Below, piece by piece: positions 381 through 47,586 of a stretch of DNA of 48,887 nucleotides (positions are counted from its first letter, which is position 1; each line of letters starts with the position of its first letter). The position numbers and the translations under genes were made by a program. The notes beneath the pieces are model-generated. The model was not told where the DNA came from. It did not search any database and worked only from the letters and a program-made list of their open reading frames with translations. Source of the stretch: Nanobdellota archaeon (lineage in GTDB: Archaea; Nanobdellota; Nanobdellia; Pacearchaeales; GW2011-AR1). The stretch spans positions 169,697 to 218,583 of the forward strand of contig JAHJSH010000029.1 in the NCBI GenBank assembly GCA_018830525.1. The letters are read 5' to 3'.

Positions 381-3083
381 ATGAAAAAGAGTTCGGAGTC
401 CTTTCAGAATCCTTTCATGTTTTTCTTGCTAGGCTCGAAAAAGAGAGGGGTTAGTGCGATTATTACTGCGGTTCTAATTATCTTGATTACTATTGCTGCT
501 ATTGGAATTATCTGGATGGCGATTGTTCCGCTTTTGAAAATGGATACTCTTTGTTCGGATATTTCTTCGCGAGTGAGTATTGATACTTCAAAAGGATATA
601 CTTATTATAATTCTGTTTATGATGTTATGGCTGTTCAGGTTAAACGAAATCCTGGGGGGAGTGCAAATCTTTCAGATGTAAGAATCACAATTAGTTTTGG
701 GGGGGGTTCGGGAAGTAAGATTGTTCCAGCTCCCGGGCCGGGTCAGGCGAGAGTTTATTTGTTTAATTTGAGTAACTTTGAGGGCGAGCCGACGAAGGTT
801 AGTGTTGCTCCAATTTTTTCGAAGGGGCGGAAGAAAACTGAATGTCCGGTTAGTTCTTTCTTGGAAGCCCCTTTCTTGAATGGAAGTCTTTCTGATGGAG
901 ATTATATCCTTTTTGGTGCTTGTGTTTCAGATGGAGATTGTGATGATGGGAATGATTGTACTTCGGATAGTTGCGGGGAAGAAGGTGAATGTGTTTATAG
1001 TTTGGTTACCAATGGTCTTCCTTGTCTTGGTGGAACTTGTCAATTTGGTGTTTGTGTCGAATGTTATACTTATCCTTTCTTGGGTCGTGTTGGTTATTGG
1101 AGTTTGAATGATTCGTTTGGCTTCGCTGTCGATAGTGTTGGAGATAATGATGGAAGTGTTTTTGGGAATACTCGGTTGTTGATGCACTTTGATGATGTCG
1201 CCGGGGCGACTTCGTTGTATGATGATGCGGTTGCTTATTGGAAGTTTGATGATACTGGTTTGGTTGCTGTTGATGAAAGTGTTAATGGAAATGATGGGAC
1301 TGTTGTTGGTGGGGTAACTGTTGGAGTTGATGGTGAGTTTGGGTCGGCTTATGAGTTTGATGGGGTTGATGGGTATGTTGAGGTTGGTGATGATGATAGT
1401 TTGGATTTTGGAACTGGAGACTTTACTGTTTGTAATTGGTTTAAATATAATACAGCAAATGGTCAGCAGGTCTGGTCAAAGAGGATAGAGTTAAAAGAGG
1501 ATATGGAGATGCAGATAGCTGGTAATCAATTAATTATTACAACAAGTTATGGCGAGTCTAAAGATTGGATTACTGTGGGTAATATTTTTGAAGGTGTTTG
1601 GTATTATTCATGTGTAGTACGGGATAATGGGAATGTTAGTTCATATGTTGATGGGGATTATAAAAATAGCACGTTTAATGAAGATAATGTTTCTACTTCA
1701 TCAGATTTCTATATTGGGAAGGATGGTGTGGCTGACCTGGAATTTTTCAATGGCTCAATCGACCAAGTAGCAATCTGGGATAAAGCATTAACTCCTTTGG
1801 AGATTTCTGAGATTTATAGGGAAGGGCTTGTGCGGGATGAGACGGCTTATAGGAATAACGGGCGGTTTAATGATAGTTCGGATGTGAAGGTTGTTGCTGG
1901 GGTTAGTGGTTTGGCTGGGGATAAGGCTTTGGAGTTTGATGGTGTTGATGATTATGTTGAAGTTGATGATGGGATTTTTACAGTAACTCAATCAGAATTG
2001 ACTTTAAGTTCTTGGGTCTATATTAATGAATTTAACTTGGGTCTATCGGGAGGAGACACTTCAACCCCCCTTATTTCTAGTTATAATAATTATGATTTGG
2101 GAAATGGGAAGGGGTATATGTTGAGAGCATTTCATAGAAATCTTAATGGTGAAAATACCTTGAGTTGGAAATTTAATATAATGGATGGCGGTCTTGGAAA
2201 AAGTATTGATTGTTTTACTCTCGGTGTATCTGCGTTTGAAGCTGATTATAAAAACAAATGGATCAACATTGTTGGGGTTTTTAAGGGAGATGACTATATT
2301 AAATTATATATCGGGGGACAGGAATGTTTTTCTGATTCTGCACCCAGTCAAATGATTCCAGATTTAACTTCTCCAGTGTGGGTTGGAAGGACTGGAGTTA
2401 ATCCAGGTTTCCTTAATGGCTCAATAGACGAAGTTGCAATTTATTCAAGGGCATTGACTGCGACGGAGATTGGGGAACATTATGATGAGAAGAAGGCGCA
2501 GTTTGTTGATTGGGGTGATGGTCAGGTTGGGGGTGCGATGGAGTTTGATGGAGTTGATGATTATGTTGATTTGGGAACGGCCGATTCTTTGAATGTTAGT
2601 AATAGCACTCTTAGCGCTTGGGTAAAAATCAATTCTTTTAGTACTGATGATAATGTCGGACAAGTGATAGCTTCAAGTTATGCCGTAAATTTGGGGGGGG
2701 CTATATTTTATTTAAACGGGAATTTGCAGGGAACTGGTGCATTACCTGGATTTAGGATGTTTGGAGGTATTGATCCTATTCCTAGTGCATTAAGTTCTGA
2801 AAATTTATTATTAGATAAATGGTATCATATTGTTGGTACTTATGATGGGACCAATATAAACATTTATACTGATGGGGACTTAAAAGACTCTAGATTATAC
2901 CTTGATGGAAAGGGATTTAATCAGTTTATTATTGGTAAAGCATCTTGGTATGATGGGCATTTTTTCAATGGCTCCATCGACGAAGTCTCTATTTGGAGTA
3001 GGGCATTATCGAAAGACGAGATTGAAGCGATTTATAATTTGGATAAGGGTGTGGGGATTTGTTCTTACCTAACTTCGATTTAA
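381..3083 (+). CDS. Large surface protein with pilin-like N-terminus and three LamG domains
   Basis: This 900-residue protein is probably a cell-surface adhesin or sugar-binding protein. Residues 20-23 (KKRG) followed by about 28 hydrophobic residues resemble a class III (type IV pilin) signal, so prepilin peptidase may process it. A Cys-rich Asp segment (about 181-228, 'DGDCDDGNDCTSDSC') follows. Then come three concanavalin A-like LamG/jellyroll repeats, at roughly 285-485, 495-715 and 725-895. Each starts with an 'EFDGVDDYVEV'-type strand and ends with a 'GSIDEVAIWSRAL' strand. The LamG repeats are clear from these recurring motifs; pilus association is inferred from the N-terminus and the nearby pilus locus. 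The start at 381 is supported by the TATA spacing. Poly-G runs in Gly codons are frequent. Confidence 0.8.
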   Translation: MKKSSESFQNPFMFFLLGSKKRGVSAIITAVLIILITIAAIGIIWMAIVPLLKMDTLCSDISSRVSIDTSKGYTYYNSVYDVMAVQVKRNPGGSANLSDVRITISFGGGSGSKIVPAPGPGQARVYLFNLSNFEGEPTKVSVAPIFSKGRKKTECPVSSFLEAPFLNGSLSDGDYILFGACVSDGDCDDGNDCTSDSCGEEGECVYSLVTNGLPCLGGTCQFGVCVECYTYPFLGRVGYWSLNDSFGFAVDSVGDNDGSVFGNTRLLMHFDDVAGATSLYDDAVAYWKFDDTGLVAVDESVNGNDGTVVGGVTVGVDGEFGSAYEFDGVDGYVEVGDDDSLDFGTGDFTVCNWFKYNTANGQQVWSKRIELKEDMEMQIAGNQLIITTSYGESKDWITVGNIFEGVWYYSCVVRDNGNVSSYVDGDYKNSTFNEDNVSTSSDFYIGKDGVADLEFFNGSIDQVAIWDKALTPLEISEIYREGLVRDETAYRNNGRFNDSSDVKVVAGVSGLAGDKALEFDGVDDYVEVDDGIFTVTQSELTLSSWVYINEFNLGLSGGDTSTPLISSYNNYDLGNGKGYMLRAFHRNLNGENTLSWKFNIMDGGLGKSIDCFTLGVSAFEADYKNKWINIVGVFKGDDYIKLYIGGQECFSDSAPSQMIPDLTSPVWVGRTGVNPGFLNGSIDEVAIYSRALTATEIGEHYDEKKAQFVDWGDGQVGGAMEFDGVDDYVDLGTADSLNVSNSTLSAWVKINSFSTDDNVGQVIASSYAVNLGGAIFYLNGNLQGTGALPGFRMFGGIDPIPSALSSENLLLDKWYHIVGTYDGTNINIYTDGDLKDSRLYLDGKGFNQFIIGKASWYDGHFFNGSIDEVSIWSRALSKDEIEAIYNLDKGVGICSYLTSI

Positions 3084-6517: not shown

Positions 6518-9500
6518 ATGATGTTTAAACCGGGCGCGCCATTGTATTCTTATGAGATTATTCGGGAATCTGGGGAGAATGTTATGTACATTAATTATCT
6601 TGGTGCGAACTTTACTCCTTCCTTGATTGAATCCCCAATTGTGATGGCTAGGACGCTTGATAACCTTAAGGAAGATTCAAATATTAGTCGAATTGTTTTT
6701 GTCCAACAGAGAAATTATTCCCATGACTTTACACAGGTGAAAATGTTGATTGAAGTTTCCAACCTTTTTGATTTTTTAATTAATCGGGAACGAATCGTTT
6801 CTCCTGAAAAATTATCTCATCTGGGCAAGGATTATTATGTTGCTTATGCTTTTTTGAATCATATTCTTAATGAGGTTTTGAAACAAGATCCGATTTTGGC
6901 TTATAGGGAATTAAGGAGCGCGATTTTTGAACAGAAAGCTTTGTTGGGGGAGGGGGGAGATAATGAAGACTATATTCGGGTTTTGGAAAAGGTTGAAGGT
7001 TATTTTGAAGATTTATTATTGGTTAAAAAGTTGAAGCCTTCTTTTGATTCTTATTCTTCCGGAGATAGGGATATTTATTCAGAGGTTTTTAGGGCGGATG
7101 CGATGCCGAATTTTACCTTTACTCGAATGGTTGCGCGAATCCCTGACGATGCTGAAATTATCAAACAGTATGAAATAGCGGAAGGGCCGGATAAAAGTTT
7201 GGTTACTATTTTTGAGCGTCCGAATAAAGCGAAGCTTGTCTATCACTTGTCACCTCCGGAATATAGTCTTAATGAGGATCATCATATGTTGTTGAATCTT
7301 GCACGGCAGGTTTTAATTGAGCATCGGCCGTCCGAGGAAGAATTTAATGATCCGGAGCGGACTCGGCAGGTTTTTCTTAATGTTGCTAGGGATTTGCTTT
7401 CAGATTTGGCGCAGAGTAAGAATCTTAGTTTGAATTACATGGAGTTGGGGAAGTTGGCGAATATTCTTGTGAGACATACGATTGGTTTTGGAATTTTAGA
7501 AGTTTTGCTTCAGGATGAGAATTTACAGGATATTGTTATTAACGCTCCGGTTAGTTTAAGTCCGGTTTTTGTAAGGCATAATGAGTTTGATGAGTGTGTT
7601 ACTAATTTGATTCCTTCTCAAGAGGATGCGGATTCTTGGGCGGCAAAGTTTAGGATGATTTCGGGTCGGGCGCTTGATGAGGCGAATCCGATTTTGGATA
7701 CTAATTTGGAATTGAAAAATGCGAGTGCTAGAGTTGCAATTATCCAGCAGCCACTTTCTGCAGGAGGAATTGCTTATGCTTTGAGGCGACATCGTAGCAA
7801 ACCGTGGACTTTGCCTTTATTTATTAAAAATAAAATGATAGATAGTTTAGGTGCGGGACTTTTGAGTTTTATGGTTGATGGGGCTCGAACGATGTTGGTT
7901 GCTGGGACAAGAAGTTCAGGTAAATGTGTTGATGGGGATACATTGATTCAATTAAGTGATGGAGGAATAAAAAAGATTAGAGATTTGGTTGGAGAGAAGA
8001 AGAAAGATATAGAAGATGGAGAGATATTTAGTCCAAAAGAGAAATTTGGGGTTAAGTCTTTAGAAGGAATGAAAATTAGTGAGAAGGAAATAAGTGATGT
8101 ATGGAAGAGGATTTCTCCTGAAAAGGTTATTCAAATAAGAACAAGAAGTGGAAAGCAGATTATTACTACAAAAGAACATCCTTATTTTATTTATGAGGGG
8201 GGTATAAAAAATAAGAGGGCAGATTCTCTTGAAAAAGGTAATTTGATTGTTAGCCCGCGAAATTTGAAATTTGATTTAGATGAACAGAAAATTAATTTAA
8301 AAGATAATAACTATTTAGTGAATGAGGGGGGGGTAAGTTATGTTCTGAAAGGCGGAACTAATTCTCAAGAAGTTTTATTTCCAAAAACAGTAACTAAAGA
8401 ATTAGCTGAAATTATTGGAATGATAATCGGTGATGGGCATTTGGATGAATGTAAATTAGAATTTCATAATCAGTCTATTGAATTAAGAGAGAGGTATATT
8501 AAATTGTTAAAGATGTTTGGGGTGAAATATAGAATTTTTGATTCTCATACTACAACTGTTGTGCAAGTAACTTCTAGAATGTTAAATAGGTTATTGAGAG
8601 ATGTTTTTGAAATTCCTTTTGGGAAAAAGTCTGATAAGGTTGTTATCCCTCAAATAATACTAAAATCTAATAATAATGTTTTGGCAAGATTTTTAAGAGG
8701 GTATTTTGATTGTGATGGTTATGTTCCAAAAGACAAAAGAGACTTGGAGATTGTTAGTGCAAGTAAAATGATGGGGGAGCACTTGAAGCTGGCACTTTTG
8801 CGGTTTGGCATTACACCTTTTTTGAAGATTAAGAAAATTAATGGAGAAAATTATTATAGAATATTGATTAGAGGAAGTTTTGTTAATGATTATGCTAAGA
8901 ATATTGGTTTTTTTCATCCATTTAAAAAAAATAGATTAGAGCAAATTAGTTGTAGGGATTTTATTGAAAATTCTAATACTGATGTAATTCCTGAAGGTAA
9001 TGAGATAATTAAAAAGTTAAGAAAAGAATTAAGGGTTTGTCCACAGGATGTTAGAATTGTTACTGGAAAAGATTATTGGGCTTATGAAAATGATAAATAT
9101 AGGGTTACAAGGAGTTGGTTTAGAAAACTTGTTTATTTTTACAAAAACAGGTTTGATAATTTGAAGACTATGGGGGAGGATATTGTGAAGTTAAAGAATT
9201 TTGTTAATTTCAATTATACTGATTATTTGGAAAACATCAATAAGTTGAGGAGTTTACTCGGAGTTTCTTATTCTTTCTTGGCAGGAGAATTGGGTATGTC
9301 TGAGGCAGGCATAAGAAAAATTTTGAAAAATAAGAAAATTAGCAATTATGGGGTTTTAATTAAAACTTTTGGTTTGTTTAGATTTTTGAAAGAAAGGTAT
9401 GATGCAGTTTTTGGGTTAAAAGGAAATGGTTTGAGGGTTGATTGTATCCCTGAATTAGTTAAAGAAGGGGTTGTTAGTTATGCAGAAATAGGGAGGGAGT

Positions 9501-12415
9501 GCAATATTCCAGAGAGTAGTTTGAAATATTATTGCTGTGGTAATTCTGTCCCTGTTGAAAGAAAAGAGGTAATTGAAAGATGTTTAATTGGATTAAAGAT
9601 TAAAATGTTATTTAGTCTTGAGAAGTCGTTTGATTTAATAGATAATATTTCTATTATTAGTGAGTCTATTAATTTTGGTATGATTTTAGCTAATATGAGA
9701 AATGAACTTGGCATATCTAATGAAGAATTTGCTAAGCATGGAATTTCTGTTGGAAGCGTAACGAACTTTTTTTGTGGGCATTCTAAACCAAGCATAGAGA
9801 CTCTTAAGGCGATGGTTGGTTGTATTATGGGGGTTTATGAGTCTTGTGTTAATGATGGGAACTTTGAATTAATTAAGGAAGCAGATAAATTGGCAAGTTC
9901 AGATATTTATTGGGATGAGATTTTGAGTGTTGAGGAGATAGATAAGGTTGATGATTATGTTTATGATTTAACTGTCCCAGAGGCGCATAATTTTGTTGCA
10001 AATGGGATTGTTGCTCACAATACATCTTTGCTTGGAAGTTTGTTGTTGGAGATTATGCCGAACCATAGAGTTATTACTATCGAAGACAGTGTTACAAAAG
10101 ATGCATTGATGGTTGTAAGGCGAAATGGTCTTTATGAGAAGATAAGTATTGGAAATTTGATTGATGAACAGGTAAGTAAATATGGGTTTATTGATTTGGA
10201 TGGTAGAGAGAAGTCTTTTAATTTAGAAGGTATAGAAGTTTTTTCTTTTAATAAAGATGGTAGAATTGTCTTATCTAAGCCAAGTAAGTTTATTCGACAT
10301 AAAAATACTAAAGATATTTATGAAGTAGAGACTGCTTCTGGAAAAATTATTAATGTTACTAAAGACCATTCACTTTTTTCTTTAGATGTGGATAATTTAA
10401 TTAAACCCATAAAGCCCATTAATTTAAGGGAAGATAATTTTATTGCTATTCCTAGAAAACTTAATTTTGGCAATAAGAGAGACTTTATAGACATCTTGCC
10501 ATTTTTGGGAGATATTGAAAAAAAGATTTATGTTTTGGGGGCTCCGATTAATAATTATTTTGATGGGAAAAGAAAAGAGTTGTTCGATTTTTGTTCTAAA
10601 TTAAATTATAAAAAAGCGACTATTCAGTCTTGGACTAGAAATAAAGTTTTGCCTTATGAGGTATATAATAAATTAAGGGAACAGATTGGCGAAGGAGATT
10701 TTTTTATTAAAAGTTTTTCTTCATCTAAAATTATTCCGACTAAGATAATGTTAGATGAGGATTTTTTAAACTTTTTAGGTTTATGGCTTGCAGATGGTTG
10801 TTATGGTAAGAATTCTGTTTTGATTTCTGTTCAGGAAGAGGAGAATCGTGAAGTGGTTTGTAGAGTTGCTAAGAAATTGGGCATGAATGTTAAGGTTCAT
10901 AGTGACGAGTTTACTTTTATGTTGAATTCGGGGTTATTTCGAGAGGTGATGGAAAGAGTATTGCTTTTTTCAGGAAATTCTTATACCAAGAAAATTCCTA
11001 ATTGGATTTATGGGCTTTCAAATAAACAGGTTGGGTGGATGTTAAGAGGATTTTATAGTGGGGATGGGTGTGCAATAGATAAAGAGATTGTTTTTTCAAG
11101 TTGCTCTAAAGATTTAATAAAAGATATTTCTACATTGCTTTTGAGGTTTGGGATTATTCTTCGATATTCTAGTGTTAAGAGAAAAGATAAGTGTACTAAT
11201 TGTCGGATTGGGGACGGCGAGATGATTAAACTTTATAAGAAGAATATTGGGTTTTTGGTCGATAAGAAAAGGGAGAGGTTGGATAAATTATGTTCTAGAA
11301 AATCAAATCATGATACTTCTGATATAATCCCCTTGAGCTTAGAGGTTAAAAATAAATTATCTAAAGAAATTGGTGGTGATTTTAATTTTTATGATTATGT
11401 TACTCGGAATAATAATTTGGGGATAAGAAAGTTAAGATCTTTTGTTGATATTTTAAAAGGGGGTGATTTGAAGGAAAAATTAACTCGTCTTGTTGGTTGT
11501 GATATTTATTGGGATAAAGTTAAGAGTGTTAGGAAGATTAACTATAAAGGTTATGTTTATGATATTTCTGTTCCAGGGGATGAAAATTTTATTTGTGAAA
11601 ATATTTTGGCACATAACACTTTAGAATTGCCAGTTTCAGCGATGAGAAAATTGGATTATGATATTTTGTCGATGAAAGTTCGTTCGGCTTTGGCTGGGGA
11701 ATCTACAGAGGTTGCGGCAGAGGAAGGAATCCGAGCTTCGCTTCGTCTTGGAGATTCGTCTTTGATTGTTGGGGAAATTCGTTCGGCAGAAGCTAAGGCT
11801 TTGTATGAAGCGATGAGGGTTGGTGCTTTAGCGAATGTTGTTGCAGGTACGATTCATGGAGGCTCTCCGTATTCGGTTTTTGATAGGGTTGTTAATGATC
11901 TTGGTGTTCCGGTTACTTCTTTTAAGGCAACAGATTTGATTGTTGTCGCGAATCCAATTAAGTCTCCTGATGGTTTGCATTCTTGGAGAAGGGTTTTGCA
12001 AATTACGGAGGTTCGAAAGCATTGGACTAAAGATCCTTTGACGGAGGGAGGTTTTGTTGATTTGATGAAGTATGATGTGGAAGAAGATATATTAAAACCT
12101 TCGGAGGATTTGATTAATGGGGATTCGGAGATTATCAAGGATATTGCGTCGAATGTTAAGGGTTGGGCAGGGAATTGGGACGCGGTTTGGGATAATATAA
12201 TTCTTCGTCAGAAGATTAAACAAGAAGTAGTTGATTTTGCAGAGAAAATGAAACAACCAGAGTTATTAGAAGCAGAATTTACTGTGAAATCGAATAATGC
12301 GTTTCATCAGATTAGCGACGAGGTTAGCGAGGAAATTGGTTTGCCGACAAGTGAAGTCGTTTTTCCTAAGTGGAAAAGATGGTTGGAGAAAGAGAGTAAA
12401 CGTGTAGGTTTATAA
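6518..12415 (+). CDS. Type II/IV secretion system ATPase (GspE/TadA/FlaI class) interrupted by two inteins
   Basis: This is the motor ATPase of a type IV pilus or archaellum-like machine, expected to act as a cytoplasmic hexamer at the membrane. The 1965-residue precursor contains two inteins. Removing residues 470-1168 and 1191-1700 leaves a 756-residue ATPase. The host shows a long N-terminal domain, the Walker A motif 'AGTRSSGK^TS' split by intein 1, the Asp box 'VITIED^TLELP' split by intein 2, a Walker B region ('SSLIVGEIRSAEAKAL') and the His box ('AGTIHGGS'). A purine-rich stretch 'gggggag' lies 12-16 nt before the ATG. The platform protein, pilin-like genes and peptidase downstream support a pilus role. 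Activity requires two splicing events. Confidence 0.92.
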   Translation: MMFKPGAPLYSYEIIRESGENVMYINYLGANFTPSLIESPIVMARTLDNLKEDSNISRIVFVQQRNYSHDFTQVKMLIEVSNLFDFLINRERIVSPEKLSHLGKDYYVAYAFLNHILNEVLKQDPILAYRELRSAIFEQKALLGEGGDNEDYIRVLEKVEGYFEDLLLVKKLKPSFDSYSSGDRDIYSEVFRADAMPNFTFTRMVARIPDDAEIIKQYEIAEGPDKSLVTIFERPNKAKLVYHLSPPEYSLNEDHHMLLNLARQVLIEHRPSEEEFNDPERTRQVFLNVARDLLSDLAQSKNLSLNYMELGKLANILVRHTIGFGILEVLLQDENLQDIVINAPVSLSPVFVRHNEFDECVTNLIPSQEDADSWAAKFRMISGRALDEANPILDTNLELKNASARVAIIQQPLSAGGIAYALRRHRSKPWTLPLFIKNKMIDSLGAGLLSFMVDGARTMLVAGTRSSGKCVDGDTLIQLSDGGIKKIRDLVGEKKKDIEDGEIFSPKEKFGVKSLEGMKISEKEISDVWKRISPEKVIQIRTRSGKQIITTKEHPYFIYEGGIKNKRADSLEKGNLIVSPRNLKFDLDEQKINLKDNNYLVNEGGVSYVLKGGTNSQEVLFPKTVTKELAEIIGMIIGDGHLDECKLEFHNQSIELRERYIKLLKMFGVKYRIFDSHTTTVVQVTSRMLNRLLRDVFEIPFGKKSDKVVIPQIILKSNNNVLARFLRGYFDCDGYVPKDKRDLEIVSASKMMGEHLKLALLRFGITPFLKIKKINGENYYRILIRGSFVNDYAKNIGFFHPFKKNRLEQISCRDFIENSNTDVIPEGNEIIKKLRKELRVCPQDVRIVTGKDYWAYENDKYRVTRSWFRKLVYFYKNRFDNLKTMGEDIVKLKNFVNFNYTDYLENINKLRSLLGVSYSFLAGELGMSEAGIRKILKNKKISNYGVLIKTFGLFRFLKERYDAVFGLKGNGLRVDCIPELVKEGVVSYAEIGRECNIPESSLKYYCCGNSVPVERKEVIERCLIGLKIKMLFSLEKSFDLIDNISIISESINFGMILANMRNELGISNEEFAKHGISVGSVTNFFCGHSKPSIETLKAMVGCIMGVYESCVNDGNFELIKEADKLASSDIYWDEILSVEEIDKVDDYVYDLTVPEAHNFVANGIVAHNTSLLGSLLLEIMPNHRVITIEDSVTKDALMVVRRNGLYEKISIGNLIDEQVSKYGFIDLDGREKSFNLEGIEVFSFNKDGRIVLSKPSKFIRHKNTKDIYEVETASGKIINVTKDHSLFSLDVDNLIKPIKPINLREDNFIAIPRKLNFGNKRDFIDILPFLGDIEKKIYVLGAPINNYFDGKRKELFDFCSKLNYKKATIQSWTRNKVLPYEVYNKLREQIGEGDFFIKSFSSSKIIPTKIMLDEDFLNFLGLWLADGCYGKNSVLISVQEEENREVVCRVAKKLGMNVKVHSDEFTFMLNSGLFREVMERVLLFSGNSYTKKIPNWIYGLSNKQVGWMLRGFYSGDGCAIDKEIVFSSCSKDLIKDISTLLLRFGIILRYSSVKRKDKCTNCRIGDGEMIKLYKKNIGFLVDKKRERLDKLCSRKSNHDTSDIIPLSLEVKNKLSKEIGGDFNFYDYVTRNNNLGIRKLRSFVDILKGGDLKEKLTRLVGCDIYWDKVKSVRKINYKGYVYDISVPGDENFICENILAHNTLELPVSAMRKLDYDILSMKVRSALAGESTEVAAEEGIRASLRLGDSSLIVGEIRSAEAKALYEAMRVGALANVVAGTIHGGSPYSVFDRVVNDLGVPVTSFKATDLIVVANPIKSPDGLHSWRRVLQITEVRKHWTKDPLTEGGFVDLMKYDVEEDILKPSEDLINGDSEIIKDIASNVKGWAGNWDAVWDNIILRQKIKQEVVDFAEKMKQPELLEAEFTVKSNNAFHQISDEVSEEIGLPTSEVVFPKWKRWLEKESKRVGL
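7925..10021 (+). mobile_element. Intein 1 of the secretion ATPase (P-loop GK^T site, 699 aa)
   Basis: The insert begins with Cys (block A 'CVDGDTLIQLSDG'), has a block B 'TKEHPYFI' and ends 'FVANGIVAHN' with a Thr +1. The ends are therefore those of a standard class 1 intein. Homing-endonuclease motifs are 'IIGMIIGDGHLDE' and 'FLRGYFDCDGYVP', both with acidic residues. About 300 residues lie between the endonuclease core and the C-terminal splicing block. They include three helix-turn-helix-like stretches, for example 'SFLAGELGMSEAGIRKILKN'. Size is well above the usual 350-550 residues for endonuclease-containing inteins. It splits the ATPase Walker A motif. Confidence 0.93.
10088..11617 (+). 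mobile_element. Intein 2 of the secretion ATPase (IED^T site, 510 aa)
   Basis: The insert lies between Asp of 'VITIED' and Thr of 'TLELP', only 22 extein residues after intein 1. It starts with Ser ('SVTKDALMVV'), has a block B-like 'TKDHSLFS' and ends 'FICENILAHN' followed by Thr. Endonuclease motifs are 'FLGLWLADGCYG' and 'MLRGFYSGDGCAI'. A Ser rather than Cys at position 1 is less common but functional in known inteins. A helix-turn-helix-like stretch ('FCSKLNYKKATIQSWTRNKV') occurs before the first endonuclease motif. Confidence 0.9.
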
Positions 12416-25627: not shown

Positions 25628-25816
25628 ATGGTTACAAATGATTGTCCTAATCTAAGTGATGAGTGGATTCCTTCGGATGGAATGACTACCGACTCAGGGT
25701 ATATGTGTAACAAAACTAATAGTCCTTGCAGGATTAATGATTATGAAACCTGTGATATCTATTTAGCAGGTCAAGATTCTGATGATGGGTTGGAAGGAGT
25801 TGCTAATGGCAATTAA
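25628..25816 (+). CDS. Small Cys-containing protein upstream of radA
   Basis: The ATG at 25628, placed well after a TATA box, gives a 62-residue protein starting 'MVTNDCPNLSDEWIPSDGMT'. It is acidic and has four Cys residues, which could bind metal, and no membrane segment. Its end overlaps the radA start by 11 nt, so the two are translationally coupled. No family recognised; a role linked to RadA is an inference from overlap only. Confidence 0.5.
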   Translation: MVTNDCPNLSDEWIPSDGMTTDSGYMCNKTNSPCRINDYETCDIYLAGQDSDDGLEGVANGN

Positions 25817-28800
25817 ATCCGATGAAGAAAAAATCAAAGAGGCTATTTCTTCGTCCCCAAGGGATGACTCTGGTGAGCCCGACGAAGAGATTGAAGAAAA
25901 AGGGATTCAGACGATTAAAAAAGCTAAAGAAGAGAAGAAGGCTCAACTGATTGATATTCCGGGTGTTGGTCCGGGTGCAGTTGCTAAGTTGGAGGCTGCA
26001 GGGATTTATGATTTGATGGGGCTTGCGGTTTTGACTCCGACACAATTGGCTGAGACTGCGGGGATGAGTGAGACTGTTGCTAGAAAAGCAATTCAAGCAT
26101 CTCGGTCGATGATGGACATGGGATTTACTGATGGTCTTGCGCATGAGGAGAAAAGGAAAGAATTATTTTTTATTACAACAGGTTCCAAGAATTTGGATAA
26201 CCTTCTGGGTGGAAAAGGGATTCAGACGAAGTCCATTACTGAGGCTTTCGGGGCTTTTGGGAGTGGAAAATGCATAAGTAAAGATACAAGTGTTTGTTAC
26301 TTTAATGATACGCGAATGCATGTTGAGAGTATTGAAGAGACATATAATAAATATAATGTCGGGCAAGAAAGCAAATTTGAAGAAGGATTTGCAGTTCCTG
26401 TTCAAACAGTTAAGGTGCTTGCGTGGGATGATGGAAAGATGTCCGTTGTTCCCGCATCTCACCTATATAAAGAAAGGGTGAAGCAACTTTATGTTTTAAG
26501 AACAAAAAGAGGAAGGGTGCTTAAAATAACGGGCAATCATCAATTATTAGGTTTTGAAGGGGGGGTTAGGTGGAAAAAAACCTCGGAACTACAAGAAGGA
26601 GATTTAATTGCTTCACCAAAAAATATAAGTATGGTCAGTGAAAGTTTGTATGATGAAGATGATGCTTATTTTTTAGGATTGTTTGCTGCTGAGGGGAGTT
26701 TTAACCCTTTTTCAATATCTAATAGTTCTAATAAAATTAGGGGGTGGGTCTGTGAATATATTAAGAATAAATTTGGATACTCGCCTATAGTACGGGAAGA
26801 TAAAAGAAGAAAGAATACTGTCTATACAATTCTTTTAAGAAACAAAACAAGAGTTATCATGGATGGACTTGATAAGTGTAATTCTTCCGATAAATTTATT
26901 CCGGAGGGAATTTTTCTTTCTTCTGAGAGTGTAATTTTGTCTTTTCTGGGGGGATATTTGGATGGTGATGGGGAAGTATCTGAATATGATATTTCTGCAA
27001 CAACTAAAAGCAAAAGATTCGCAACACAGTTAACTTATCTTCTTCTAAGGTTGGGGATTTCTTCATCTCTTAAAAGAAAGATAGTAGATAATGTTAATTA
27101 TCATATTGTTCGGATTTGTGGGGAAGACAGGGAAAAATTAAAAGAAATTAAATTTCTGATTAAGAGTTTTAATTCAAAATTAAAAAATAGTTCATTTGGA
27201 TATCCGAGACAGATTATTAAATTTTTAAGTGATTTGTATAAGGAGAGTATTGGAGGAAACAGGGGAAGTTTAAGAAAGTTATTTGGGAAGGCGAATAATA
27301 ACTCTACTGCATATAAGAATTTAACAAATTCTTCTTTTGCAAAAGTAATAAATTCAGGTACCTTGGAGGAAATTGAAAATATATTTTTTATCCAGAAAGA
27401 AAATTATCTTGGGATATTAAAAGAGCTTGAAGATGATTTTTCGCTTGAAATCTTAAGAGATATATATCCGAGACTTCCTTTTGCATTTAATTGCTTGTCT
27501 GAGGGTTTGGGCGTTAAAAAGTCAACTATGAGAAATTATTATTTGAGGAGTATTCCTAATACTAAAAAGGAGCTTTTAAGAAATTTGATAATCAATGAGT
27601 TAAGAACCAGAGTTGATACCATTTGTCTTGCGTTATCTTTAATTGGAGAGATAAAAATATTTAATTGGGATGTTGTTGAATCTAGCGAAATAGTAGATTA
27701 CAATGATTTTGTTTATGATTTTGTTGTTCCCGAGGGTCATTCTTTTATTGGAGGAAATATGCCTACAATGATGCATAATACTCAACTTGCTTTGTCCCTT
27801 GCCGTCGGTGTTCAACTTCCTGTTGAACAAGGTGGGGCAAATGGGAAGGCGGTATATATTGATACTGAAGGAACTTTTCGTCCGGAGCGAGTTAGGCAAT
27901 TCGCTGAGGGTATCGGGGCGAATCCCGATAAAGTTTTGAAGAATATCTTGGTTGCTCGAGCATTCAATAGTTTGCCGTATGATGAGAAAGTTTATTATTT
28001 GGAAAATGGGGAATATAAGAGAGGGGTTATTGGGGATGTTGTGAAGAATAGCAAGAAGGATGTGGTAGGGTTTTCTTTTGATTTGTCTACGGGGAGGATG
28101 GTGAGGGCTAAAGTTTCGAATTTGATATCTCATTATGTTCCTAAGGGGGAAGTGATATACAAAATTAAGACAAAGTATGGGAGAGAGGTTAGAGTTACTG
28201 GTTCGCATTCTTTGTTTAAGGGAGTTAGGAAATCTTCAAGGGGAAAGGCTACGGTTAAGCGAGAGAAAAATAATATGAGACCAGAATGCGTTGAGGCTAA
28301 AAAATTGAAGGTTGGTGATTATATTGCTATATCAAGATATTTACCGATGATTGATAAAGACAGAAGGGTTGTTGATTTAATTAAGGAGGTTAAGAAGTTT
28401 CCTGATAAGATTAGAAAGGAGATAGAGATTGGGAAGAAGGGTGTTTCGCTTAAGCATACTGGGAAAAGGGATAGAAGGATTTTTCCTAAGAATATTGAGG
28501 TTGATGGGGATTTGCTTTGGTTACTTGGTTTTGCTGTTGCCGAGGGAAATTCTCAATATAAAGAAAGGTTTGTTAGAATTAGACTAAGTTCGGAGACTAG
28601 GTATTTAGAGAGGGCGAGAGAGATTATTTATGAAAAGTTTGGAATAGATTCGTTTTTGTATGAGAAGAGTCATAGTTTACTTATTTCTAGCAGATTGTTT
28701 GCTTTGATATTAAAGTATGTTTTCGGGGTTGATTTAGGATTGAAGTCTCCGGATAGAGTTATTCCTGATTGGATTATGCAATTGCCTTTAAATAAGTTGA

Positions 28801-31133
28801 AGAGTTTTATTAAGGGATTTTGGGACGGGGATGGTTATCATGCAGAGAGTGTGAGGAAGAGGAGGATTATTTTTTATACTTCAAGCAGGGAGCTTGCTAA
28901 TGATTTATCTATCGCATTGCTTAGATTTAGATTGATGTCTAACATACTCGAGATTAAGTTGGATAAGAGAGCGGATTACAAGGATTATTGGAGCAAGCAT
29001 TACAGAGTTGAAGTTGCGGGAGTTAGTAAGGATGAGATTTTTAAGTTGGAAGAGGTTAGCCAGAATTTGAATGCTCCTGAGTGGAATGATTTGGTTTTTG
29101 CTCGAATTAAGGGGATTGAGAGAGAGGTTTTAAAGAAGGAAGAGGAAGTTTTTGATTTTGAGGTTGCTAGTAAGGGGGAGGATTATGAGAATTTTTTGGG
29201 TGGAATTGGGGGTATTTGTTGTCATAATAGTGACCATCAAATGTTATTATTGGATAAGGTTAGTGAGATGATTAAAGATGGTGAGCCGATTAGGTTAATG
29301 ATTATTGATTCTTTGACTGCGCACTTTAGGGCCGAGTATTCAGGACGAGGACAATTAGCAGACAGACAGCAGAGGCTAAATAGATATTTGCATAATTTGA
29401 TGAAAATTGCTGAGCAGAATAATTTGGCGGTTTATGTTACTAATCAAGTTATGAGTGATCCGGCACAAATGTTTGGTGACCCGACAAAGGCAATTGGGGG
29501 GAATATCGTCGGTCATGCATGTTTGACTGGGGAAAGTATTATCCAGTTATCCGATGGAAGTTTTAAGAATATTATGGATGTTAGTGGGGACAAGATTGTT
29601 TGCGGAAACTTTAGTGACTTGAAATTTGGGAATTCCTTTTCAGATGTGCGTTCTATTAATAATCAGGTTGATAAGGTATATAGTATTGTTACGACAAATA
29701 GGATTAAGAGTTCTGGGTTGCATCGATTTTTTTGTGTTGAGAATTTTAATGTAATCGAGAAAGAGGCGAAGGATTTAAGGGAAGGGGAGTTTATTGCTCT
29801 TGCGGGAAAATTGAATATTGAGGGAGAAGTTCAAAGATTACCAGATTTCGGTGTTAAGAGGGTTGGGAAGATTTCATTTGAGGATTCTGGGATTGTTGTG
29901 AGTAAACTGAAAGAGGCGGGGATTTCAAGAGATGAAATTTGTGATCAGATAGGAATTACAACAAGACAATTTAGAAGAGTTTTGAATCAAGAAAGTATTA
30001 CGTCTATGAATGTTATAGATAATTTGAATAGTGGACTTGGTCTTGAGTTACAATGTGTTCCGGTTATGACTTACAAGCACAAAGGATTGATGATTCCAAC
30101 TGTAATGAGTGTAGAGTTTGCGCAGATATTAGGATATTTTATGGGCGATGGAAATTTTGAAAACAGAGGCGTTAGGTTTAGGGATGCGAGAAGAGAGGTA
30201 TTAGAGGGTTATAATGAATTATTTGAAGGTGTTTTTCAGAGGAAAGGGAGTATAACAAAAGTTAAGGATAAGAATTGTTTTAGTTTGGATATTAATTCAA
30301 AAGGGATTAGGGATTTTATGGAGAATGTTTTGAGAGATGTTTATGATTATATTGGGAGGAGTTCTTGTGAAGTTGTCGGTGGGTTTGTTCGAGGTTTTGT
30401 CGATGCTGAGGGACATATTGATAAAGATAGGAATAGGATTAATATTTCTCAGAAGAATAAAGGGGTGTTGGAATATTTACAATTGTTTTTACTTAGATTT
30501 GGGATTAGGAGTTCGCTTTCTGTTGATATTGGGGCAAAGAAAATGAACTATCTTTTGATTGATGGTCGGGATGTTGAGGGATATTTAAAAATAGGGTTTA
30601 GTGCAGAGGATAAACAGGAGAGATTATTAGAATGTATTAATAGAATAAATAGTAGTTATAAAAAAGAAATGATGCCTGTTGGAAGAAAAGAGTTGTGGAA
30701 TTTAGTCAAAGATGTAGGGCTTAAGCCTTTTTTGTTGATGAAGTTTCGGGGGGTTGGTTATAAGTGGGTTAATAGGTTGGAATTAGAAAAAGTGTTTGAT
30801 GCTTTGATGAATGTTGAGATTAAGGATAGGCAGATTAAACAGAAGATTAATTTTATATTTAATTTATTAACTGGAGAGTTTAGATTTGAAAAAATTAGAA
30901 AAATTAAGATTAGGGATAATAAGGATAAAGAATTGTTTTATGATTTTTCTGTTCCAGAAGGTCAGAATTATATAGCGAATGGATATGTGGTTCATAATTC
31001 CACCTACAGAATGTACCTCCGTCGGGGAAAGAAAGATTCCCGGGTTGCTAAGTTAATTGATAGCCCTGATTTGCCGGATAACGAGACTGTATTTATGATT
31101 GAGACTAACGGATTGAGAGACATTGAGGTTTAG
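25806..31133 (+). CDS. radA: DNA repair/recombination protein RadA interrupted by three inteins
   Basis: RadA is the archaeal RecA/Rad51 recombinase that forms filaments on single-stranded DNA and catalyses strand exchange. The 1775-residue precursor (ATG at 25806, with 'ggag' 7 nt upstream) yields a 359-residue host after removing residues 156-658, 722-1141 and 1239-1731. The host has an N-terminal helix-hairpin-helix ('IPGVGPGAVAKLEAAGIYDL'), Walker A 'FGAFGSGK^T', the 'ARAFN^SDHQ' segment, Walker B ('RLMIIDSLTAHFRAEY'), 'NQVMSDP' and 'NIVGHA^STYRMYLRRGK'. Every intein interrupts a conserved catalytic motif, so active protein needs three splicing events. Confidence 0.95.
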   Translation: MAIKSDEEKIKEAISSSPRDDSGEPDEEIEEKGIQTIKKAKEEKKAQLIDIPGVGPGAVAKLEAAGIYDLMGLAVLTPTQLAETAGMSETVARKAIQASRSMMDMGFTDGLAHEEKRKELFFITTGSKNLDNLLGGKGIQTKSITEAFGAFGSGKCISKDTSVCYFNDTRMHVESIEETYNKYNVGQESKFEEGFAVPVQTVKVLAWDDGKMSVVPASHLYKERVKQLYVLRTKRGRVLKITGNHQLLGFEGGVRWKKTSELQEGDLIASPKNISMVSESLYDEDDAYFLGLFAAEGSFNPFSISNSSNKIRGWVCEYIKNKFGYSPIVREDKRRKNTVYTILLRNKTRVIMDGLDKCNSSDKFIPEGIFLSSESVILSFLGGYLDGDGEVSEYDISATTKSKRFATQLTYLLLRLGISSSLKRKIVDNVNYHIVRICGEDREKLKEIKFLIKSFNSKLKNSSFGYPRQIIKFLSDLYKESIGGNRGSLRKLFGKANNNSTAYKNLTNSSFAKVINSGTLEEIENIFFIQKENYLGILKELEDDFSLEILRDIYPRLPFAFNCLSEGLGVKKSTMRNYYLRSIPNTKKELLRNLIINELRTRVDTICLALSLIGEIKIFNWDVVESSEIVDYNDFVYDFVVPEGHSFIGGNMPTMMHNTQLALSLAVGVQLPVEQGGANGKAVYIDTEGTFRPERVRQFAEGIGANPDKVLKNILVARAFNSLPYDEKVYYLENGEYKRGVIGDVVKNSKKDVVGFSFDLSTGRMVRAKVSNLISHYVPKGEVIYKIKTKYGREVRVTGSHSLFKGVRKSSRGKATVKREKNNMRPECVEAKKLKVGDYIAISRYLPMIDKDRRVVDLIKEVKKFPDKIRKEIEIGKKGVSLKHTGKRDRRIFPKNIEVDGDLLWLLGFAVAEGNSQYKERFVRIRLSSETRYLERAREIIYEKFGIDSFLYEKSHSLLISSRLFALILKYVFGVDLGLKSPDRVIPDWIMQLPLNKLKSFIKGFWDGDGYHAESVRKRRIIFYTSSRELANDLSIALLRFRLMSNILEIKLDKRADYKDYWSKHYRVEVAGVSKDEIFKLEEVSQNLNAPEWNDLVFARIKGIEREVLKKEEEVFDFEVASKGEDYENFLGGIGGICCHNSDHQMLLLDKVSEMIKDGEPIRLMIIDSLTAHFRAEYSGRGQLADRQQRLNRYLHNLMKIAEQNNLAVYVTNQVMSDPAQMFGDPTKAIGGNIVGHACLTGESIIQLSDGSFKNIMDVSGDKIVCGNFSDLKFGNSFSDVRSINNQVDKVYSIVTTNRIKSSGLHRFFCVENFNVIEKEAKDLREGEFIALAGKLNIEGEVQRLPDFGVKRVGKISFEDSGIVVSKLKEAGISRDEICDQIGITTRQFRRVLNQESITSMNVIDNLNSGLGLELQCVPVMTYKHKGLMIPTVMSVEFAQILGYFMGDGNFENRGVRFRDARREVLEGYNELFEGVFQRKGSITKVKDKNCFSLDINSKGIRDFMENVLRDVYDYIGRSSCEVVGGFVRGFVDAEGHIDKDRNRINISQKNKGVLEYLQLFLLRFGIRSSLSVDIGAKKMNYLLIDGRDVEGYLKIGFSAEDKQERLLECINRINSSYKKEMMPVGRKELWNLVKDVGLKPFLLMKFRGVGYKWVNRLELEKVFDALMNVEIKDRQIKQKINFIFNLLTGEFRFEKIRKIKIRDNKDKELFYDFSVPEGQNYIANGYVVHNSTYRMYLRRGKKDSRVAKLIDSPDLPDNETVFMIETNGLRDIEV
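26271..27779 (+). mobile_element. RadA intein 1 (P-loop GK^T site, 503 aa)
   Basis: The insert starts with Cys ('CISKDTSVCYFND') directly after GSGK and ends 'GGNMPTMMHN' before Thr, with a block B 'TGNHQLLG'. Endonuclease motifs are 'FLGLFAAEGSF' and 'FLGGYLDGDGEVS', the first with Glu replacing Asp. A helix-turn-helix-like segment ('NCLSEGLGVKKSTMRNYYLR') precedes the C-terminal splicing block. This is the same position as the known Pyrococcus-type RadA intein, from my knowledge of that family. Confidence 0.93.
27969..29228 (+). mobile_element. RadA intein 2 (AFN^S site, 420 aa)
   Basis: The insert lies between 'ARAFN' and 'SDHQMLL'. It begins with Ser ('SLPYDEKVYYLENGEYKRG'), has a block B 'TGSHSLFK' and ends 'GGICCHN' with Ser +1. 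Endonuclease motifs are 'LLGFAVAEGNSQY' and 'FIKGFWDGDGYHA'. The intein is the shortest of the six and has no obvious extra domain. Confidence 0.92.
29520..30998 (+). mobile_element. RadA intein 3 (GHA^S site, 493 aa)
   Basis: The insert lies between 'GGNIVGHA' and 'STYRMYLRRGK'. It begins with Cys ('CLTGESIIQLSDGSFKN') and ends 'YIANGYVVHN' before Ser. Block B appears weak ('SGLHRFFCV' with His). Endonuclease motifs are 'ILGYFMGDGNFEN' and 'FVRGFVDAEGHIDK'. A helix-turn-helix-like stretch ('AGISRDEICDQIGITTRQFR') occurs between the splicing and endonuclease parts. Confidence 0.92.
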
Positions 31134-44463: not shown

Positions 44464-47400
44464 TCAAATTTTAATCTTCCCTTTAAATCGCTTCGCCATT
44501 TTCTGCATCATCTTTTTGTCAATCTTTCCTTCGGCTAAACCTTCTGCTGAACTCATACCCATCATATCTTTTATCATTTTATACTGTTTTAGGAGTTCTC
44601 GGATTTCGGTTGTTGTTGTTCCACTTCCTTTCGCGATTCGTTGAATCCTAGAAGTTTGTTTTTCCATAACTTCAGGGTTCTCAATTTCTTCTTCAGTCAT
44701 ACTTGAGATTGCGTTTTTCCAATGAGCCATTTTCTTTTCTTGTTTTGCTAAAACATCTTTTGGGACTTTTGCGGCGTTCATTCCTGGAATCATTCCAAGC
44801 ATTTTATCCATGCTTCCAAGTTTGTTCATCTGTTCTAATTGTCCGTATAAATCTAGGAGTGTGAATTTTCCTTCTTGCATTCTTTCTTCAATTCGCTTTT
44901 GTTGTTTTTCGTCTGTTGCGGATTTGACATGTTCGAGAAGTGCATTAAGGTCGCCCATTCCGAGAAGTCTTGAGATGAAAGATTCTGGGTCGAAGATTTC
45001 TATTTCATGAATTTGTTCTCCAATACCGATGAAGAAGACTTGTGCTTTTGTTTCGGCGCAGGCGGTTAAGGCCCCCCCGGCTTTTGAGGTTCCGTCCATT
45101 CTCGTGATGATTACTCCGTCAACTGAAAGTGCTTTTTGAAATTCTTCTGCTTGTGTTTTTGCGGCTTGTCCGATGTCGGCAGGCATAACTAAAATCCTGT
45201 AATCAGGTTTCAAAGTTTTATCTAGCTTTTCTATTTCTTTAATTAATTCTTTGTTAAGTCCGTCTCGCCCGGCCGTGTCTATTAGAACTAAGTCGTATTT
45301 TTTGAGTTCTTTTGCATATTGTTTTATTATTTTTATTGGGTCTTTTTCTTTTTTGTCGATGAATACTGGGAGCTTTGCTTTCTTTGCCATTTGTTCGAGT
45401 TGGTCCATTGCTGCAGGTCTTTGAGTGTCCAGTCCTAGAAGTGCGACTTTTCTTCCCCGTTTTGCATAATAGAATCCTAGTTTTGCGATTGTTGTGGTGT
45501 TGTGAATAATGATTCCTTCTGCGATGAAACTATGATTATCTTTAACGGTTAAGTCATAAACATATTCAGAGTCATTTTTTATTTTATTGGTGTTTTTTAC
45601 TTGAATCCAACTTACATCTGAATTTACAATGTTTTTAATATTGGCTAGACTGCTTTGAGAATCAAAATTTTTATACATTTTTAAAATTTGATTGTCCCTT
45701 GTTGTTAATTCTATACTTGAAGGTGTTTTTGTTATTATTTCATTTTTTTCAAGAGAATAAATTATACTGTTTATGGATTCTTTTGAATGGTTTTCTAAGC
45801 TATCGTTTTTAATGTCGTTTAAGAATAAATTGAATTTTCCTTTTTCTTTAGAGATGTAGAGTAGGAATAGTTTTAGTAATTTCTCTCTTGAAATAAAACC
45901 TTTCTTTTCATAAATCCCATAACTATAGACTGCGTTGTTTTGTATCTCCCCAATTGAGAATCCAAGATTTAGTCTTAATTGTTTTAAGGATTTCCCCATT
46001 GGTATCATATCTTGTTTTCCACTTCCTTGAATTAATCCAATTTTCTTATAATTATTTGAGGCGTCTTGTTTTCTTTTTACTTTGTATCCAATAATTTCGT
46101 TGTATCTTTCGGCATTTTTTGCTGTGATAGATAGTCTGAAGTATTCCCTGTTATTAATTTCTTTTTTGGAAAATGAGGAAACTATTTCGAATCTATATAG
46201 AAGCATGTTTAGTTCCTTTAATAGGGATTGGCTTTCTGAGGATATTTCGATATGTCTACGGTTTTTTGAAGGATATGAGTCGCAATCAAAATATGCTTGT
46301 ATGAAATTTCTTGCTGTTTCGTTGTCTGATTTTAATATTTGTTTTGGGATTTTAAGACTTCTTCCCTTTTTCCCAGGGGTTAGGTTGAATATTGACATTA
46401 GTTCTACGAGAGTTGTTGATACTAATCTTATTTGATAAAGATTTTTTGTTCTTTTGTCTTTATTTATTGAAGGGGAAAGATTGAATAATATTTTTGATAA
46501 TTCTGTAATTCTTTCTATTATTTCCGGGTCTTCGTTTGTAATTTCAATATAACTTTTTTCTATGTGTCCATCACCTATTAAATATCCTATAAATTCTGAA
46601 AATTCTTTTGTTAGATATAATGGGAATGTTATTATCTTGTTGCCGTTTTTGCTTTTCAGTCTAATACTTTTGTGATTTATTTTGTTTATTAGTTCTAAGG
46701 GTATTTTTCCTTTTTTTAATTTACTTGTAAAACAGCAATAATTAACTTTGTTTTTTAGTTTGCTGTGAATTTCTTTTAGATTTTTGTCTTCTTTTTTCAG
46801 AATATTTTTTATTTCTTCTTGGGAAAGATAGGTTGATAGATTTAGTTTCTTTATATCATTGAATAGGTTTATTGTTTTTCCGTCTACGGTATATTTTTGT
46901 GGAATTGCTACAAAGTCATTTGGAGTTATTTCTTCTGCTTTTATTTGGATTACGTTTCCTTCTCGAAGTACGAAAAAGGGGTGTTCTGGGGTGACTTTTA
47001 TGGAATAATCATTTCCGTTATCAAGATGTACTTCAATTAGGTCTTCTTTTTTTAATTTCCATAGGTGAGTTACTTCTTTGTTTTCTATTCTGCAAGTTTT
47101 TGGGTTAAAGGAGGGAACGGTGATTTTTTTATTTTCTACATTTATTAGCTCTCCATCGTTTAATTTTTCGGATTTTATAGAGATATATCTGTTGTAGAGG
47201 TTTTCTGCGGAAATTATTTCTCCAGAGGTTAGTTGTATTTTGCATTTTTTGTGGACGCACTTTCCAGCACCATAAAGACCCATAAACATAATGCTTGCTT
47301 TCTTTGGAAGTTTAAGCTCAGTTTTTTGACCAAGAAGTAAACTGATTTCATCATGAATTAATTTGACTAGTTGTTCCTTCTTATCGATTCCTTTGATTGT

Positions 47401-47586
47401 TTCATCGTAAGCTAGATTTTTTATCTTCTGGGAGAGTGCGAAGACTAATTCTACATTTACGTCCGCTTCAATCAGTGCCCTTTGGATATCTTTTACGATT
47501 CCATCTATGAGTTTCTTATCTACAAAGATTGCGTTTGAAATCTTTTTCATTCCGGATTTCAAGGCCGAGCCTAGTTTATCTAGCAT
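44464..47586 (-). CDS. srp54: Signal recognition particle protein SRP54 interrupted by one intein
   Basis: SRP54 recognises signal peptides and targets ribosomes to the membrane together with SRP RNA. The 1040-residue precursor contains an intein at residues 110-696; the spliced product is 453 residues, normal for the family. It shows the N-domain, G1 P-loop 'MGLYGAGK^TTTIAKL', 'LLGLDTQRPAAMDQL', G3 'LVLIDTAGRDG', G4 'ITRMDGTSKAGG' and the methionine-rich M domain ('GMIPGM', 'LKQYKMIKDMMGM'). The intein splits the GTP-binding loop, so the precursor cannot bind GTP normally until spliced. Confidence 0.95.
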   Translation of the reverse strand: MLDKLGSALKSGMKKISNAIFVDKKLIDGIVKDIQRALIEADVNVELVFALSQKIKNLAYDETIKGIDKKEQLVKLIHDEISLLLGQKTELKLPKKASIMFMGLYGAGKCVHKKCKIQLTSGEIISAENLYNRYISIKSEKLNDGELINVENKKITVPSFNPKTCRIENKEVTHLWKLKKEDLIEVHLDNGNDYSIKVTPEHPFFVLREGNVIQIKAEEITPNDFVAIPQKYTVDGKTINLFNDIKKLNLSTYLSQEEIKNILKKEDKNLKEIHSKLKNKVNYCCFTSKLKKGKIPLELINKINHKSIRLKSKNGNKIITFPLYLTKEFSEFIGYLIGDGHIEKSYIEITNEDPEIIERITELSKILFNLSPSINKDKRTKNLYQIRLVSTTLVELMSIFNLTPGKKGRSLKIPKQILKSDNETARNFIQAYFDCDSYPSKNRRHIEISSESQSLLKELNMLLYRFEIVSSFSKKEINNREYFRLSITAKNAERYNEIIGYKVKRKQDASNNYKKIGLIQGSGKQDMIPMGKSLKQLRLNLGFSIGEIQNNAVYSYGIYEKKGFISREKLLKLFLLYISKEKGKFNLFLNDIKNDSLENHSKESINSIIYSLEKNEIITKTPSSIELTTRDNQILKMYKNFDSQSSLANIKNIVNSDVSWIQVKNTNKIKNDSEYVYDLTVKDNHSFIAEGIIIHNTTTIAKLGFYYAKRGRKVALLGLDTQRPAAMDQLEQMAKKAKLPVFIDKKEKDPIKIIKQYAKELKKYDLVLIDTAGRDGLNKELIKEIEKLDKTLKPDYRILVMPADIGQAAKTQAEEFQKALSVDGVIITRMDGTSKAGGALTACAETKAQVFFIGIGEQIHEIEIFDPESFISRLLGMGDLNALLEHVKSATDEKQQKRIEERMQEGKFTLLDLYGQLEQMNKLGSMDKMLGMIPGMNAAKVPKDVLAKQEKKMAHWKNAISSMTEEEIENPEVMEKQTSRIQRIAKGSGTTTTEIRELLKQYKMIKDMMGMSSAEGLAEGKIDKKMMQKMAKRFKGKIKI
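45499..47259 (-). mobile_element. SRP54 intein (P-loop GK^T site, 587 aa)
   Basis: The insert begins with Cys ('CVHKKCKIQLTSGEIISAEN') after GAGK and ends 'SFIAEGIIIHN' before Thr. A block B-like 'TPEHPFFVL' is clear. Endonuclease motifs are 'FIGYLIGDGHIEK' and 'FIQAYFDCDSYPS', with Ser replacing the second Gly. A helix-turn-helix-like region ('LRLNLGFSIGEIQNNAVYSY') follows. The AT-rich composition differs from the flanking host exons by eye. Confidence 0.93.

Follow-up and report, generated by a model that had tools for sequence, protein, structure and literature searches.

SRP54 is an essential GTPase of protein targeting, and in the window (the whole 48,887-nucleotide stretch of archaeal DNA analyzed here) its gene is interrupted within the GTP-binding loop, which raises the questions of what the interrupting element is, how it came to lie there, and whether it serves the host. 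A single stop-free frame of 1040 amino acids on the reverse strand (44464-47586) holds the exteins together with an insert of 587 residues (45499-47259), which contains no stop, begins with CVHKK and ends with IIHN in translation. A first-pass annotation had called this interval an intein in SRP54 that splits the GTP-binding loop; its coordinates proved right to the base, Pfam and NCBIfam give both intein and SRP54 matches, and the insertion lies between Lys and Thr of GLYGAGK^TTT (^ marks the junction). The gene is divided as follows.

44464-47586, reverse strand: srp54 gene encoding the 1040-aa precursor of N-extein, intein and C-extein (ORF; Pfam SRP54_N, SRP54 and SRP_SPB; NCBIfam SRP54_euk/ffh profiles)
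47260-47586, reverse strand: N-extein, 109 aa, the N domain and the start of the G domain, with last residues GLYGAGK ending in the P-loop Lys (ORF; alignment to intein-free SRP54 of congeners)
45499-47259, reverse strand: intein, 587 aa, from Cys1 to His-Asn, between P-loop Lys and Thr (translation; Pfam; NCBIfam; alignment)
46870-47259, reverse strand: N-terminal splicing (HINT) part, residues 1-130, with block A CVHKK and block B VTPEHPFF at 89-96, TPEH at 90-93 (NCBIfam; alignment; strands of the model)
46075-46644, reverse strand: LAGLIDADG homing endonuclease, residues ~206-395, with motif 1 GYLIGDGHI (Asp230) and motif 2 AYFDCDS (Asp327) (Pfam LAGLIDADG_3 in two stretches; alignment; structural match to I-DmoI/I-Tsp061I over 213-411)
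45640-46074, reverse strand: accessory region, mostly helical, residues ~396-540, with conserved GKQDMIPMGKSLKQLRLNLGFSIGEIQ (alignment; model; position as in the TliVMA accessory domain, PMC8966425)
45499-45639, reverse strand: C-terminal splicing part, residues 541-587, VYDLTVKDNHSFIAEGIIIHN (NCBIfam intein_Cterm; alignment)
44464-45498, reverse strand: C-extein, beginning with Thr-Thr-Thr of the P-loop and continuing through the remaining GTPase and M domain (ORF; Pfam)

The N, G and M domains of the host are all present (Pfam SRP54_N, SRP54 GTPase at 9e-56, and SRP_SPB), which identifies it as SRP54. Joined without the insert, the exteins read SIMFMGLYGAGK followed directly by TTTIAKLGFYY, the unbroken P-loop expected of an intact host, and alignment with the intein-free SRP54 genes of congeners runs straight over the junction. 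The insertion point assigns the element to the P-loop class of inteins (Walker A Lys^Thr/Ser). Targeted searches, from which all genome-wide statements about the window's genome derive, found one SRP54 copy in this draft assembly (35 contigs, about 86% complete, under 1 Mb); because only this copy was found, SRP54-dependent targeting should depend on splicing.

Within the insert, Pfam detects Intein_splicing (1e-30) and LAGLIDADG_3 (1e-22, in two stretches), while NCBIfam places intein_Nterm at residues 1-97 and intein_Cterm at 566-587, the exact insert ends. The splicing residues are complete for an intein (Cys1, T90-P-E-H93, H586-N587 and Thr+1), with blocks A, B, F and G represented by Cys1, TPEH, VYDLTV...SFIAEG and HN; Cys1, a block B TxxH (TPEH in nearly all), the terminal HN and the +1 Thr are kept in all complete SRP54 copies. 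Two LAGLIDADG helices, with motif 1 in the context FIGYLIGDGHI and motif 2 in AYFDCDS, contribute one catalytic acidic residue each (Asp230 and Asp327), as in members of this endonuclease family, and the fold resembles I-DmoI. The accessory region carries the strongly conserved stretch QDMIPLGKxLKxLRxxLGFSIGEIQ. An AlphaFold model of the intein (mean pLDDT 84) matches TliVMA (7qss/7qsu, Z 29) and 2cw7 (PI-PkoII, Z 27.5) over its whole length, and its predicted HINT fold scores Z 19-29 against solved inteins. The observed insertion is far beyond chance.

About 21 distinct SRP54 inteins were found at the identical codon junction, scattered over archaea of several phyla: Pacearchaeota/Nanoarchaeota, Woesearchaeota, Aenigmatarchaeota, Micrarchaeota, Diapherotrites and two Thermoplasmatota, nearly all genomes compared being draft metagenome assemblies. 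Within the order 10 of the 200 genomes carry the intein, and within the genus 2 of 16; the site is empty in most genomes searched. Sampling one genome from each species added copies in Woesearchaeota (L057), Thermoplasmatota (L058, L060), Aenigmatarchaeota (L061), Micrarchaeota (L064-L067) and Diapherotrites (L068); in every case the insert separates the P-loop Lys from the Thr, with L061 cut by a contig end so that its junction is visible on the Lys side only; two more (L101, L102) come from other families of the same class. A wider search of 194 Thermoplasmatota genomes found no carriers beyond the same two, and a scan of viral contigs found no SRP54- or FtsY-type intein, its eight matches being distant (mostly 20-28% identity, best E 4e-7). 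The first-pass annotation had regarded SRP54 as an uncommon intein host and had proposed a search for further cases: its remark holds for the literature, as the open-access papers searched neither mention such a host nor describe any of these inteins, but the rarity it implies is only relative, with about 21 sampled archaeal genomes occupied at this site.

At the junction homologous to the SRP54 site, inteins also occur in four FtsY genes. At one locus (L045, the same place as L056) the host is FtsY and not SRP54, with the junction GINGSGK^TTSLAK..., GDTFRAASMEQL; this is a Pacearchaeota copy, and the others are from Aenigmatarchaeota (L069), Hadesarchaea (L070) and Bathyarchaeota (L076). The Bathyarchaeota intein, at this same junction, is short (170 aa) and has no endonuclease motifs. 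Between the Pacearchaeota FtsY intein and the Pacearchaeota SRP54 inteins identity is 47-53%, whereas the host proteins share 25-30%, and in the intein tree the FtsY copy is nested within the Pacearchaeota SRP54 inteins (97/96); a tree that unites all three long FtsY inteins in one clade is rejected (p-AU 0.001). Because this copy nests among SRP54 inteins, the intein has, on the evidence of the tree, moved between the paralogous GTPases SRP54 and FtsY. Around the junction, the P-loop DNA of ftsY and that of srp54 in the window's genome agree in 19 of 23 bases, with the core CTGGAAAR^ACMACMACMATCGCA, a likeness that may offer a plain route for the jump. The genomes that hold L045, L069 and L076 have an intein-free SRP54 gene, FtsY is of normal length in those carriers of SRP54 inteins where it was seen, and no genome was seen with an intein in both genes, as low frequencies would also predict. 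In genome G175 the intein-bearing ftsY lies next to an SRP54 (L129) that has no intein and whose N domain is duplicated in tandem, the two copies being nearly identical; the duplication could be an assembly error.

With the anatomy, the conserved catalytic residues, the exact site, the patchy distribution, the tree conflict set out below and the jump to FtsY established, we consider it highly probable that a Pacearchaeota-like DPANN archaeon here carries in its SRP54 an intein of the classic P-loop type that is full-length, splices itself and is mobile; its splicing, its cutting and the cut sequence are what we infer. After translation, the HINT domain would excise the intein: Cys1 would perform the N-S acyl shift, Thr+1 would accept the N-extein, and Asn587 would cyclise with the aid of His586, so that Lys and Thr of GLYGAGK-TTT would be rejoined and the GTP-binding loop restored. 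The LAGLIDADG endonuclease would recognise the conserved P-loop codons of intein-free srp54, and homing would drive copying. On this reading the element repeatedly spreads and is lost among archaea, at times crossing phyla, and has now and then landed in ftsY, a gene with P-loop codons that resemble those of srp54. Cutting of the intein-free allele has indirect support from patchiness, tree conflict and purifying selection.

Two of the alternatives concern how the intein is inherited and whether its endonuclease still works. Purely vertical descent from an ancestral archaeal SRP54, through very many independent precise losses and with no horizontal movement, is consistent with identities of intein and extein to the window copy that often run in parallel (e.g. 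0.54/0.53 and 0.38/0.37), and with Micrarchaeota and Diapherotrites copies that stand together in both the intein and SRP54 trees. It is nevertheless quite unlikely. Carriers are scattered among non-carriers in the SRP54 tree, requiring at least seven state changes, and most genomes are empty. The inteins L051 and L063 are sisters (96/94, 64% identity), although the SRP54s that host them share 53% identity and come from different families; the Thermoplasmatota inteins fall inside the DPANN set, and the basal placement expected from the host tree is rejected (p-AU 0.011), although tests for L062 with L063 (p-AU 0.069) and for Micrarchaeota (0.061) were borderline. The FtsY copy nested among Pacearchaeota inteins cannot be vertical in SRP54 at all. 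Within the genus, vertical descent with repeated loss appears as good an account as homing, because synonymous divergence between the two congeners (G000 and G012) is similar for intein (1.49) and extein (1.19); these two copies may date from long ago, the intein having been lost from lineages between them. A second possibility is that splicing has been kept while homing is already lost, as the first-pass annotation had proposed from the second endonuclease motif, which does read DCDS (YFDCDS in the alignment) with Ser instead of the usual Gly at position 9. Such decay occurs in the family: the Pacearchaeota FtsY copy alone reads DCGS, has lost the catalytic Asp, and makes the stronger case for an endonuclease that has ceased to cut. 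For the window copy this is unlikely. The catalytic Asp of its motif, the second D, is kept, the domain is of full length, and Ser is usual in the order, where motif 2 is DCDS in 9 of 10 SRP54 inteins (DCDG in the remaining one) at only ~50-76% intein identity, a motif that a decaying domain would not hold. Other SRP54 inteins have DCDA, DCDG or DTDG. Only the residue after the motif-2 Asp varies, being S, G or A, and every SRP54 intein compared retains the catalytic Asp in both motifs. Relative to the congener, dN/dS is 0.093 for the endonuclease, 0.069 for the N-terminal splicing part and 0.075 for the SRP54 extein, values that are rough at dS above 1, where silent sites are near saturation; by these ratios the endonuclease is under purifying selection.

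The intein might instead be a regulatory switch kept by the host, one in which redox state, temperature or nucleotide delays or sets off splicing and hence the activation of SRP54: with the P-loop split, activity is all-or-none, and conditional splicing is reported for other inteins such as those of RadA and DnaB (PMC5790916, PMC6195587). Patchiness within a single genus speaks against a conserved host function, no feature of the sequence points to a signal, and we regard this as very unlikely; the same low probability attaches to the wider proposal that one mobile P-loop intein lineage alternates between SRP54 and FtsY as its targets, and that its splicing is a real switch on co-translational targeting. 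The draft state of the genome could favor an error of assembly or annotation, or a pseudogene holding an inactive insert, but a 1040-aa frame without stops, an identical junction in about 20 independent assemblies and the purifying selection leave this explanation almost no probability.

The window and its genome hold other inteins beside the SRP54 copy. An ORF of 1965 aa resembling an archaellum/type II secretion ATPase (6518-12415, forward strand) contains two, the first at a P-loop-like SSGK^, and a RadA recombinase ORF of 1783 aa (25782-31133, forward strand) contains three. The genome is intein-rich, with 24 splicing-domain matches, and its further hosts (L001, L002, L003 and L007), named by eye, include a HerA-like ATPase, GyrA, GyrB, an ABC ATPase P-loop and more. 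In relatives, the catalytic GGQ loop of the archaeal release factor aRF1 (AGGQ^SAQRF) seems to be interrupted by inteins (L115, L119, L121 and L124), the host being named by eye from the flanks. A 900-aa protein near the start of the window (381-3083, forward strand) has three Laminin_G_3 (concanavalin-like lectin) stretches.

Within the open-access literature searched, SRP54 is a new host gene and allele for an ordinary, known kind of intein; the intein is new by host and allele because neither SRP54 nor FtsY was found as a host in searchable papers, where mentions of FtsY near "intein" were unrelated, although a subscription paper or supplementary list may hold one. Hosts of P-loop inteins are known mostly from replication and repair proteins, and two protein-targeting GTPases, SRP54 and FtsY, are here added to them. 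The pair also documents, with support from the tree, the transfer of an intein from one paralogous gene to another. The occupied and empty alleles within one genus are material for testing homing, and an intein splitting Lys from Thr is a possible tool for splicing-dependent SRP54 activity.

P-loops are well-known intein sites (PMC5874633), and the position between Lys and Thr is the "classic" one, exemplified by mycobacteriophage TerL1-a (PMC5050341), which shares the Walker A position of the SRP54 intein but has an unrelated host in a phage that is not archaeal. Most relatives outside SRP54 and FtsY, likewise archaeal inteins, sit at P-loop Lys^Thr/Ser in ABC, V-ATPase, EF-2, SMC-like and T2SS-type genes, and the nearest, from the same class of archaea, are P-loop inteins of an ABC ATPase, a T2SS/archaellum-type ATPase, EF-2 and V-ATPase (L103, L108, L116, L105 and L007), gene names other than ABC and T2SS being read from flanks. 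These non-SRP relatives score at most 194 bits against the intein profile, in contrast to 530-1018 for SRP54 copies, and the two ABC copies in the tree form a separate clade. The best NCBIfam profile for the SRP54 intein is that of the archaeal IF-2 (infB) intein, NF011418 (2e-40, end-to-end), and IF-2 is likewise a translation-linked GTPase; the score lies far below the NF011418 cut-off, so the protein found here is a different host and not IF-2. Among solved structures the best match is to the P-loop inteins of archaeal V-ATPase subunit A (VMA-b; TliVMA 7qss/7qsu, PhoVMA 7qst), by sequence (E 4e-28 to 7qsu) as by structure (Z 29). TliVMA, also a P-loop intein, has an active endonuclease, and its accessory domain lies between that endonuclease and the C-terminal HINT part (PMC8966425). 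The SRP54 intein shares with the VMA-b inteins the P-loop site and the combination of HINT, LAGLIDADG and accessory domains, but differs from them in its host, in identity (~24-27% over the structural alignment), in its larger size (587 vs ~430 aa) and in its accessory region.
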